Positions 6,600-41,263 of a DNA stretch of 48,421 bases are shown piece by piece (positions within the stretch are counted from its first letter, which is position 1; every line of letters starts with the position of its first letter). The DNA is from Candidatus Tayloriibacteriota bacterium (GTDB lineage: Bacteria; Patescibacteriota; Minisyncoccia; Phycocordibacterales; SIBU01): contig SIBU01000006.1 in assembly GCA_009695005.1 (NCBI GenBank), forward strand, positions 1 to 48,421, written 5' to 3'. The notes below the pieces were generated by a model. That model searched no databases and was not told where the DNA came from. It saw nothing but the letters and a program-made list of their open reading frames with translations. Made by a program: the position numbers and the translations under genes.

Positions 6600-6689
6600 G
6601 TGGGCGGTAAAGGAATTTCTCGGCCTACAGCCGCAGTACAGGTTTCCCATCTCGCAGACTCGATAAGGGAGAACCTTTTCGAATCCTCA
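6600..6689 (-). repeat. tRNA-tail module Val-b (type I core)
   Basis: Minus strand: inverted T-arm TGAGGATTCGAA, hairpin core ...GTACTG CGGC-TGTAG-GCCG..., terminal direct copy CCTTTACCGCCCAC of tRNA-Val 3' end. Confidence 0.75.
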
Positions 6690-6740
6690 CTCAAGGCAAG
6701 CAGTTGCCTTGCTTACCACCCACAATTCGTGGGACTTTTT

Positions 6741-6836
6741 GTGGGCGGTAGAGGATTCGGTCACGCATAATTTTCTGGTGAAAATTTACGCGACCCCGAC
6801 TCGGCCCGTCGGCCTCCGTCTTTCGAATCCTCTACC
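6741..6836 (-). repeat. tRNA-tail module Val-a (type II core)
   Basis: Minus strand: GGTAGAGGATTCGAA (inverted tRNA-Val T-arm/acceptor) - core - CGAATCCTCTACCGCCCAC (direct tRNA-Val 3' end). Confidence 0.85.
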
Positions 6837-6893
6837 ACCATCACACTGACAACTTACAAAAACAGCCCAACGGGCTGTTTCTGTAAGTCATTG

Positions 6894-6966
6894 TGGGCGG
6901 TAGAGGATTCGAACCTCTGACCCCATCGACGTCAACGATGTGCTCTACCAACTGAGCTAACCGCCC
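6894..6966 (-). tRNA. tRNA-Val(GAC)
   Basis: GGGCGGTTAGCTCAGTTGGTAGAGC ACATCGTTGACGTCGATG ... GGTTCGAATCC TCTACCGCCCA; loop TTGACGT, no encoded CCA. Confidence 0.95.
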
Positions 6967-6995: not shown

Positions 6996-7315
6996 CGGGG
7001 AGATTCGGTCGCTACTCGACCAGTACACCTTTCCCATTTCTTCACGATATGAATCGCTCAGAAATATGGGAGAAGGTCTTCGACTCCCCGACGCAGAGCG
7101 TTTAGCCCTGCTTAGGTTCACAGCCTTGTCGCGTTGCTCCAAACCTGTGACCCTACGGGGAGATTCGGTCGCTACTCGACCAGTACACCTTTCCCATTTC
7201 TTCACGATACGAATCGCTCAGAAATATGGGAGAAGGTCTTCGACTCCCCGACGCAGAGCGTTTAGCTCTGCTTAGGTTCACAGCCTTGTCGCGTTGCTCC
7301 AAACCTGTGACCCTA
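6996..7315 (-). repeat. Two tandem 160-bp tRNA-tail modules of tRNA-Glu (type I core)
   Basis: Period 160 bp (CGGGGAGATTCGG at 6996 and 7156, junction CGGGGAGTC at 7316); units differ at about 2 positions; contain inverted TTCGACTCCCC. Confidence 0.9.
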
Positions 7316-7379
7316 CGGGGAGTCGAACCCCGATTCCAGCCTTGAAAAGGCCGTGTCCTAACCATTAGACGATAGGGCC
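7308..7379 (-). tRNA. tRNA-Glu(TTC)
   Basis: GGCCCTATCGTCTAATGGTTAGGACACGGCCTTTTCAAGGCTG...GGGTTCGACTCCCCGTAGGGTCA. Confidence 0.95.
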
Positions 7380-7475
7380 ATTAAGGAAAATTGACTCCCT
7401 AAAGACCCAAAAATAATAGCATTTTTTGTAAAATTAGCAAAAAATGCTAGGATTACTCGGTCAAACTAATCCACG

Positions 7476-7561
7476 GAGGAGTGGCTGAGTGGTTGAAGGC
7501 ACCGCATTCGAAACGCGGCAGGGATGAAAGTCCCTCGTGGGTTCAAATCCCACCTCCTCCG
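7476..7561 (+). tRNA. tRNA-Ser(CGA)
   Basis: GGAGGAGTGGCTGAGTGGTTGAAGGCACCGCATTCGAAACGCGG, long variable arm, GGGTTCAAATCCCACCTCCTCCG. Confidence 0.95.
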
Positions 7562-7936
7562 CAATGAGCCACAAGAAAGTCTAAATGACTTTCGAGTGGG
7601 TCGTCATTGCGAGAGAGAGGTAGGATTTGAAGGCCGGAGTCTTGCTTTGGCAAGACGAGGCGGGGTCGCGGGATTTTCTAGTTGGAAAATACCTGTGACC
7701 AAATCCCACCTCCTCCGCAAAATCAAACACTCCAAGGTATGTTTTGATTTTGCGTGTGGAAGTATCTGCTGGGAGCAGATACGGGTGGGATTTGAAGCCC
7801 GATTGAGTCGAGTGTTCCCACGAGCCAATCGGGGTACTGAAACTGTAAGTTTCAAAATTCCCACCTCCTCCGCAATGAGCCACAAGAAAGTCTAAATGAC
7901 TTTCGAGTGGGTCGTCATTGCGTGAGAGAGGTAGGG
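7562..7936 (+). repeat. Array of tRNA-tail modules of tRNA-Ser: direct repeat, Ser-a type II core (7619-7719), Ser-b type I core (7784-7874), direct repeat
   Basis: CCACCTCCTCCGCA at the tRNA 3' end and again at ~7707 and 7861; CAATGAGCCACAAGAAAGTCTAAATGACTTTCGAGTGGGTCGTCATTGCG repeated at ~7562 and ~7873; inverted GGATTTGAAG/GGTGGGATTTGAAG. Confidence 0.9.
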
Positions 7937-32430: not shown

Positions 32431-32520
32431 GTGGGCGGGAGAGGGATCTTGAAACTTACAGTTTCTGTACATCTTTCGTATTCCGATGACGGAATAGACT
32501 CAAGGTCTTCAAGTCCTCTC
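32431..32520 (-). repeat. tRNA-tail module Leu-b (type I core variant)
   Basis: Minus strand AGAGAGGACTTGAAG...GTACAGAAACTGTAAGTTTCAAGATCCCTCTCCCGCCCAC. Confidence 0.85.
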
Positions 32521-32575
32521 TTGCAGGCAAAGCAGTTTGCCTGCTCTGACCACAAAAATTCGTGGACTCTTTTAT

Positions 32576-32681
32576 GTGGGCGGGAGAGGAATCTTGACCG
32601 CTACTCGGTCAGTACCCCGATTGGATTTTTTCTTCACTAGGAAGTGTGAAAAAATACTCAATCGGGCTTCAAGTCCTCTCC
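32576..32681 (-). repeat. tRNA-tail module Leu-a (type I core)
   Basis: Minus strand GGAGAGGACTTGAAGCCCGATTGAG...CCAATCGGGGTACTGACCGAGTAGCGGTCAAGATTCCTCTCCCGCCCAC. Confidence 0.9.
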
Positions 32682-32742
32682 GAAAAGCATGTCCGTGCTT
32701 TTCTCCGCCTCACAAGATATATTCGCGAGGCTCATTGTTTTG

Positions 32743-32823
32743 TGGGCGGGAGAGGACTTGAACCTCCATGCCTTGCGGCACCAGCTCCTAAGGCTGGCGT
32801 GTCTGCCATTTCACCACCCGCCC
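32743..32823 (-). tRNA. tRNA-Leu(TAG)
   Basis: GGGCGGGTGGTGAAATGGCAGACACGCCAGCCTTAGGAGCTGG...GGTTCAAGTCCTCTCCCGCCCA. Confidence 0.95.
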
Positions 32824-32835
32824 AATTGTATAATT

Positions 32836-33116
32836 CGCCTCAGCTGTTTTGTTTGAAAACAAAACATGCTTCCGGCTCGCACCCGTATCAGTATTTACTG
32901 GTGGTCACGAGTTTCCTCGACTCGTCTGTCTCGGAACTCTCGACCCCGCCTCAGCTGTTTTGTCTGGAAACAAAACATGCTTCCGGCTCGCACCCGTATC
33001 AGTATTTACTGGTGGTCACGAGTTTCCTCGACTCGTCTGTCTCGGAACTCTCGACCCCGCCTCAGCTGTTTTGTTTGAAAACAAAACATGCTTCCGGCTC
33101 GCACCCGTATCAAAAA
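32836..33116 (-). repeat. 111-bp tandem repeat (about 2.5 copies) downstream of tRNA-Lys, type II core
   Basis: CAGCTGTTTTG at 32841, 32952, 33063 (period 111); inverted CGGGTGCG of the tRNA-Lys end/trailer. Confidence 0.9.
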
Positions 33117-33145
33117 ATCTAAAGCAGTTTAGATTTTTTGTCGGG

Positions 33146-33218
33146 TGCGCCCAGTTGGAATCGAACCAACGACCCTTCGCTTAAGAGGCGATTGCTCTAC
33201 CGACTGAGCTATGGGCGC
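33146..33218 (-). tRNA. tRNA-Lys(CTT)
   Basis: GCGCCCATAGCTCAGTCGGTAGAGCAATCGCCTCTTAAGCGAAGGGTCGTTGGTTCGATTCCAACTGGGCGCA. Confidence 0.93.
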
Positions 33219-33283
33219 ATATAAATACGTTCGTCATAGTAACACGTTTTTATAAATTTGCGAATTTTATATAGGGAATACAA

Positions 33284-33411
33284 TCTCGTTACAGGTTCAG
33301 TACAGGTTTCCCATCTCGGGGACTCGATATGGGAGAACCTTTTCGATTCCTACCTTGCAAGGCAAGCAGTTGCTTTGCTCCGAGTCCAGCTCGTTTCGTT
33401 CGCTGTCCCGA
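33284..33411 (-). repeat. Orphan tRNA-tail module (type I core) without an adjacent upstream tRNA
   Basis: 62 bp (33289-33350) identical to 40854-40915; degenerate outer ends. Confidence 0.85.
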
Positions 33412-40800: not shown

Positions 40801-40940
40801 CTCTCGCGCTCATCTCGTTTCGCTCGCTGTGCCCGGGGTGGGAAGTTCGAACCTTACAGGTTCAGTACAGGTTTCCCATCTCGGGGACTCGATATGGGAG
40901 AACCTTTTCGATTCCCACACGAAAGCGTCCCGCGCTTTCT
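40801..40940 (-). repeat. tRNA-tail module of tRNA-Leu(TAA) (type I core) with duplicated trailer
   Basis: Minus strand GTGGGAATCGAAAAGG...GTACTG GAACC-TGTAA-GGTTC... CTTCCCACCCCGGGCACAGCGAGCGAAACGAGATGAGCGCG. Confidence 0.9.
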
Positions 40941-40967
40941 CCCGCGCTCATCTCGTTTCGCTCGCTG

Positions 40968-41051
40968 TGCCCGGGGTGGGAATCGAACCCACACGACCTT
41001 ACGGTCCAGGGATTTTAAGTCCCTTACGGCTACCAATTACGTCACCCGGGC
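40968..41051 (-). tRNA. tRNA-Leu(TAA)
   Basis: GCCCGGGTGACGTAATTGGTAGCCGTAAGGGACTTAAAATCCC...GGGTTCGATTCCCACCCCGGGCA. Confidence 0.95.
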
Positions 41052-41055
41052 ATCC

Positions 41056-41162
41056 ATGAGAATCGCTCGCAACTCAAATTTTTGCCGTCGCAAAAATTTG
41101 TCTGGGCACCGCCTCGCAATCGCTCGAAGCTCGCGATATTGCTTCGGCGTTCGATTCTCCCG
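41056..41162 (-). repeat. tRNA-tail module of tRNA-Cys (type II-like core), truncated at the tRNA-Leu 5' flank
   Basis: Minus strand GGGAGAATCGAAC (inverted T-arm) - GCCGAAGCAATATCGC...GCGATTGCGAGGCGG - hairpin - CGATTCTC. Confidence 0.8.
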
Positions 41163-41191
41163 CGCAAGCCGCGCAGGCGGCTTGCTCGTGG

Positions 41192-41263
41192 AGGCCACGG
41201 GGAGAATCGAACTCCCGCATAGAGATTTTGCAGATCTCCGAATTACCACTTTTCTACGTGGCC
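41192..41263 (-). tRNA. tRNA-Cys(GCA), encoded CCA follows at 41189-41191
   Basis: GGCCACGTAGAAAAGTGGTAATTCGGAGATCTGCAAAATCTC...GAGTTCGATTCTCCCCGTGGCCT then CCA. Confidence 0.93.

Follow-up and report, generated by a model that had tools for sequence, protein, structure and literature searches.

All seven tRNA genes of the window (Ser, Glu, Val, Leu-TAG, Lys, Leu-TAA, and Cys), which is a complete contig of 48,421 nt, are followed by short non-coding units sharing one design. We consider these units RtT-like repeats anchored to tRNA genes, probably co-transcribed, with either recombination or the copying of a template behind their spread and re-fitting, a reading that we hold with about even confidence. 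RtT RNA was described in the early 1990s as a product of the tyrT transcript of E. coli.

The array behind the tRNA-Ser gene (7475-7935) consists of two units of ~155 nt and a truncated third one (Table 1). In each unit, a structured core lies between an antisense copy of tRNA positions T54-T65, which is exact or nearly so, and a direct copy of the tRNA 3′ end. The original prediction had described a direct repeat of the tRNA end plus trailer located after the tRNA gene and again at the array end; both copies are present and form an 80-nt repeat (7545-7624 and 7856-7935; 98% identity, 311 nt spacing) composed of the tRNA-Ser 3′ end and the trailer hairpin. The additional tRNA-end copy expected between the cores was located as well, and the palindromes GCAATGA/TCATTGC, CCAC/GTGG, and GAAAGTC/GACTTTC were all found. 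The cores differ, as had been stated, and are of two unrelated kinds, the first fitting covariance model R3 (class II) and the second fitting model R1 (class I). Folded as RNA, the array is far more stable than shuffled sequences (z = −13.4). The inverted T54-T65 copies in each unit and the units of the same design at the six other tRNA genes of the window had been overlooked; the observation made on the Ser array is correct, but it represents one case of a general phenomenon. A short ORF similar to cytidine/deoxycytidylate deaminases (PF00383; 7972-8394, + strand) begins 37 nt past the array.

Table 1. Coordinates of tRNA-associated units and their parts in the window (D, tRNA 3′ part from T54; I, antisense segment; D′, direct copy of the tRNA 3′ end).
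Feature	Position	Strand	Remarks
tRNA-Ser(CGA)	7475-7562	+	ARAGORN and Rfam
D, tRNA-Ser 3′ part from T54, source of the copies in the units	7542-7562	+	T54 located via TTCAAATCC
Trailer hairpin (hA), tRNA 3′ end continuing into one arm	7563-7619	+	
I of Ser unit 1, T54-T65 antisense	7620-7631	+	1 mismatch
Class II core of Ser unit 1	7629-7705	+	Model R3, 53.6 bits, E = 2.6e-17; sequence is in the R3 training set
D′ closing Ser unit 1, direct tRNA 3′-end copy	7700-7720	+	21 nt
I of Ser unit 2, T54-T65 antisense	7785-7796	+	Exact
Class I core of Ser unit 2	7788-7860	+	Model R1, 71.2 bits; sequence is in the R1 training set
D′, second direct copy of the tRNA-Ser 3′ end	7856-7874	+	
Truncated third Ser unit, trailer hairpin again, ending within the antisense segment	7875-7935	+	Part of the 80-nt repeat
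Two near-identical class I units of tRNA-Glu(TTC) (7307-7379)	7000-7250	-	I at 7239-7250 and 7079-7090; D′ at 7149-7160
Class II unit, then class I unit of tRNA-Val(GAC) (6893-6966)	6602-6833	-	I at 6822-6833 and 6678-6689; D′ at 6743-6754 and 6602-6613
Two class I units of tRNA-Leu(TAG) (32742-32823)	32433-32679	-	
Two class II cores in tandem of tRNA-Lys(CTT) (33143-33219)	32902-33100	-	Acceptor antisense only (GGGTGCG), without T-arm antisense
Class I unit of tRNA-Leu(TAA) (40967-41051)	40831-40918	-	
Class II unit of tRNA-Cys (41189-41263)	41060-41161	-	
Orphan class I core lying 5′ of tRNA-Lys	33282-33350 (unit to 33400)	-	Antisense AGGTAGGAATCGAA fits no neighboring tRNA

The orphan class I unit near tRNA-Lys is possibly the remnant of a lost tRNA. 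In the genome as a whole (0.79 Mb, 89% complete, 35 tRNAs detected), inspection revealed units close behind 17 tRNA genes, while those of tRNA-Asn, tRNA-Ala(GGC), and tRNA-Ser(GCT) are displaced by an inserted stretch. Between tRNA-Asn and its units lies a ubiE-like methyltransferase gene, and a further gene is followed by another unit in a cassette-like manner (L106; G000 contig C19, 121-2700). The tRNA-Ala(GGC) gene is separated by 3.4 kb from a class I unit bearing its 3′-end copy (L107; G000 contig C21), and no integrase ORF was seen in this stretch.

A complete unit follows the order D (T54-N73 of the tRNA plus CA), trailer hairpin, acceptor antisense, hairpin H2, I, core, and D′, the latter being composed of the 3′ strand of the T-stem, the 3′ strand of the acceptor, and NCA. 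Acceptor antisense was found in 72 of 131 units compared to 51 of 557 controls and mostly lies 22-25 nt before I; the gap is filled by H2 (~24 nt), the loops of which are short and mostly GGG, CTGC, or TAAAC. Class I cores comprise a stem P2, the string G(T)ACTG, and a stem P3 with an invariant GTA loop, while class II cores consist of GGAG, a hairpin, and GAG, enclosed by 3 bp and followed by a second hairpin. Covariation was 0.817 for class I and 0.575 for class II (shuffled: 0.184 and 0.202, respectively); a seeming GU/AC signal in the P2 stem of class I was left out because one misaligned bulge blurs it. Core types beyond these two also occur. Rfam searches of the window and of four array loci for self-splicing or known ribozymes gave no match, and the two classes represent covariation-backed structure families without Rfam match. 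The polarity is nearly fixed, with 93 units at the 3′ side of the tRNA and one at the 5′ side. At two loci (L183, L186), tRNA-Lys has a reversed class II unit on its 5′ side, which starts at the complement of the acceptor strand.

The antisense segment is fitted to the tRNA it follows. Within 450 nt of the tRNA gene, antisense to its own T arm was present for 14 of 35 tRNAs in this genome and for 21 of 39 and 10 of 38 in two congeners (26-54%), whereas antisense to other tRNAs occurred on the same flanks in only 3 of 582, 3 of 598, and 7 of 624 cases (about 1%; p = 1e-16, 1e-25, and 2e-9 for the three genomes). As own-tRNA antisense is far more common, the unit must be tailored to its tRNA, although exceptions occur: in this genome, the T-loop antisense of the first tRNA-His unit is mismatched. 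From T54 to T64, I pairs almost completely with the tRNA, in part because matches with at most 2 mismatches were selected, and pairing collapses to 15% at position 53; since match selection does not produce this collapse, T54 marks a sharp edge.

Several observations bear on how the fit is maintained. Among 47 units with a direct copy lacking the T-loop, the antisense in 45 still matches the T-loop of the tRNA at 7 of 7 positions. Where the T-stem has a wobble pair, the segment corresponds to the Watson-Crick antisense of the 3′ strand 24 times and to a 5′-strand copy 3 times. We therefore rejected the idea that units arose as degenerate tRNA duplicates in which H2 replaces the D and anticodon arms. 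The antisense matches its tRNA at the precision of a DNA copy, and its mismatches show no GU excess (GU 25, AC 21); as segments were found by their similarity to antisense with up to 3-4 mismatches allowed, there is a mild bias toward exactness. The stems of H2 and the trailer are almost wholly Watson-Crick paired, and their small excess of GU over AC (20 vs. 5, p = 0.004) is a hint of selection at the RNA level. Because the own-tRNA antisense is usually exact, either some copying process or a strong selection must be at work.

Alternatively, the unit may be a non-coding RNA of benefit to the host, processed from the tRNA precursor and pairing via its T-arm antisense with the cognate tRNA or precursor, thereby controlling folding, 3′ maturation, or level. 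This explanation, which we regard as rather unlikely, would account for the coverage of variable T-loop positions independently of the direct copy, for the covarying cores and conserved short hairpin loops, and for the annotation of one E. coli RtT repeat as the small RNA RttR, but the antisense lacks the GU excess. The distribution of the units speaks for it in part: model R1 matches 158 and model R3 matches 226 of the 297 genomes of the order, and according to a comparison of the two match lists roughly 240 of 297 carry class I or II. However, occurrence is patchy, as no unit was present in the 25 tRNA flanks examined in two near-complete genomes of the same order (G005, G055), which mostly show plain terminator-like hairpins there. 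Moreover, the number of units at a given tRNA varies from zero to two among congeners, and their class differs as well.

The units are restricted to one lineage, with carriers belonging mostly to Ca. Taylorbacteria/Parcubacteria. Among 380 genomes of the phylum, R1 gave 10 positives, all within the order, and no class I unit was detected outside the order in ~360 Patescibacteria sampled; one class II unit was found outside it, behind a tRNA-Trp (L300). A search of 84,980 species genomes for the exact class I pattern gave matches mostly in records labeled Ca. Taylorbacteria, Parcubacteria, Paceibacterota, or Patescibacteria and in a few "uncultured bacterium" bins. A match in Alicyclobacillus (L187) has no nearby tRNA and was taken as chance. 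Searching the literature on tRNA repeats in Patescibacteria/CPR, on RtT, and on REPs, we found nothing on these arrays.

Recombination between the repeats is supported by several products. Tandem units behind tRNA-Glu, tRNA-Tyr, and tRNA-Asn are near-identical, and three congeners sharing the Cys-Leu-Lys-Leu tRNA cluster differ at matching positions, where the spacer was seen empty, filled, or with a chimera of class II and class I. The exchange between repeats anticipated by the original prediction is therefore supported, and sister genomes do vary. Its analogy to cassettes between att-like repeats was not supported: the units have no coding content and are not accompanied by any particular recombinase, a search of the viral contigs of IMG/VR for the exact class I pattern gave no match, and att sites do not predict antisense to the own T arm. 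Passive debris, i.e., slippage that duplicates tRNA ends and trailer terminators in tandem without any element identity, could produce near-identical tandem units, and about a quarter of the trailer hairpins are indeed terminator-like; this explanation is highly improbable and already contradicted by the recurrence of the same two covarying cores behind many isotypes in over 200 genomes.

A small mobile element able to insert by its own chemistry, be it a REP/RAYT-like single-strand hairpin or an att-site cassette, would target tRNA 3′ ends and restore them with the direct copy. Such an element would be in line with the tRNA-end copies on both sides of the units, the existence of empty sites, the near-perfect palindromes, and the insertion of genes between some tRNAs and their units. 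Class I is also weakly associated with Y1 transposases (27/35 vs. 12/25, p = 0.03), but these are absent from five genomes (G001, G006, G013, G034, and G041) with 12-15 class I copies each, and several class I-rich genomes lack a reverse transcriptase. Most genomes have a single tyrosine recombinase (PF00589) whether or not they carry units, which fits a Xer protein. No integrase, reverse transcriptase, or transposase accounting for the units was found, and a reverse transcriptase or integrase origin was discarded because neither correlates with the units. Given also the lack of IMG/VR matches to the exact class I pattern and the fact that insertion leaves the fit of the antisense to each new tRNA unexplained, we judge a mobile element of this type unlikely.

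Of the known systems, RtT of E. coli (tyrT/tyrV, RF00391) comes closest and has the same layout. Its tandem units (~178 nt in E. coli) lie behind a tRNA gene and have their parts in the same order, T-stem/part-acceptor antisense GGGGAAGGA being followed by a structured core and this by the copied tRNA-Tyr 3′ end CCTTCCCCCACCACCA. The arrays described here likewise consist of tandem units directly behind the tRNA, each ending in a 3′-end copy, with a closing stem between the T-stem/acceptor antisense and the tRNA-end copy. RtT is said to hold a tandem GA (PMC8250186), which appears to be present in class I P2, too. In contrast to the E. coli locus, which lies behind tRNA-Tyr only, has two mismatches in 12 between antisense and T-loop, and lacks H2, the units analyzed here follow most tRNA types, are tailored to each, contain H2, and have at least two core families. 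The RF00391 covariance model, which does find the E. coli repeats, gave no match in the window (gathering threshold) or at the four array loci (E ≤ 5). Since the arrays work like RtT without matching RF00391, we regard them as a variant of the RtT kind and not as members of the Rfam family.

Other systems share single traits. REP/BIME sequences, too, are near-perfect palindromes that occur in many copies in bacterial chromosomes and mostly lie 3′ of genes (PMC3733652). They measure 20-40 bp, however, and are not tailored to the neighboring gene, and the cognate Y1 transposase of REP/RAYT systems is missing in several rich carriers of our units. Integrative islands targeting tRNA genes are also flanked by a copy of the tRNA 3′ end and leave the tRNA intact, whereas the ~155-nt units have no coding content or integrase and contain an internal T-arm antisense. 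Integron attC arrays are folded inverted-repeat sites as well; here, no integron integrase or gene cassettes were seen, and no known attC motif was recognized by eye.

Terminator-like sites are enriched past the array (9/68 vs. 7/221 in the background), and together with the fixed polarity, the conserved loops, and the known RtT transcript of E. coli this counts against a purely DNA-based view. A terminator-like hairpin lies ahead of the antisense in 18 of 68 arrays, and transcription of some units may therefore be inefficient. For the RtT-like reading, we envisage that the units would usually be transcribed within the tRNA precursor, like the tyrT repeats of E. coli. Their number would grow through recombination between the direct copies of the tRNA end and, as this would always leave an intact tRNA, the host would tolerate them, while cores could be swapped between tRNA loci. 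DNA-templated correction, by template switching or gene conversion inside the inverted repeat, rather than slow compensatory change at the RNA level, would keep the antisense identical to the tRNA.

Both the fixed hairpin of 22-25 nt where acceptor and T-stem meet and the abrupt edge at T54 seem to be functional and are not explained by simple duplication. It is conceivable, though improbable, that the T54-T65 antisense is a guide, with an RNA- or hairpin-guided element pairing with the tRNA, inserting at the T arm, and copying the 3′ half of its target in both orientations; if so, the units would represent a self-retargeting, protein-poor class of tRNA-parasitic element. For practical work, such arrays can break up assemblies and mislead tRNA annotation. 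With the units described here, the RtT layout, which in E. coli is found at one tRNA operon, recurs in an unrelated reduced lineage behind almost every isotype and in most genomes of the order.
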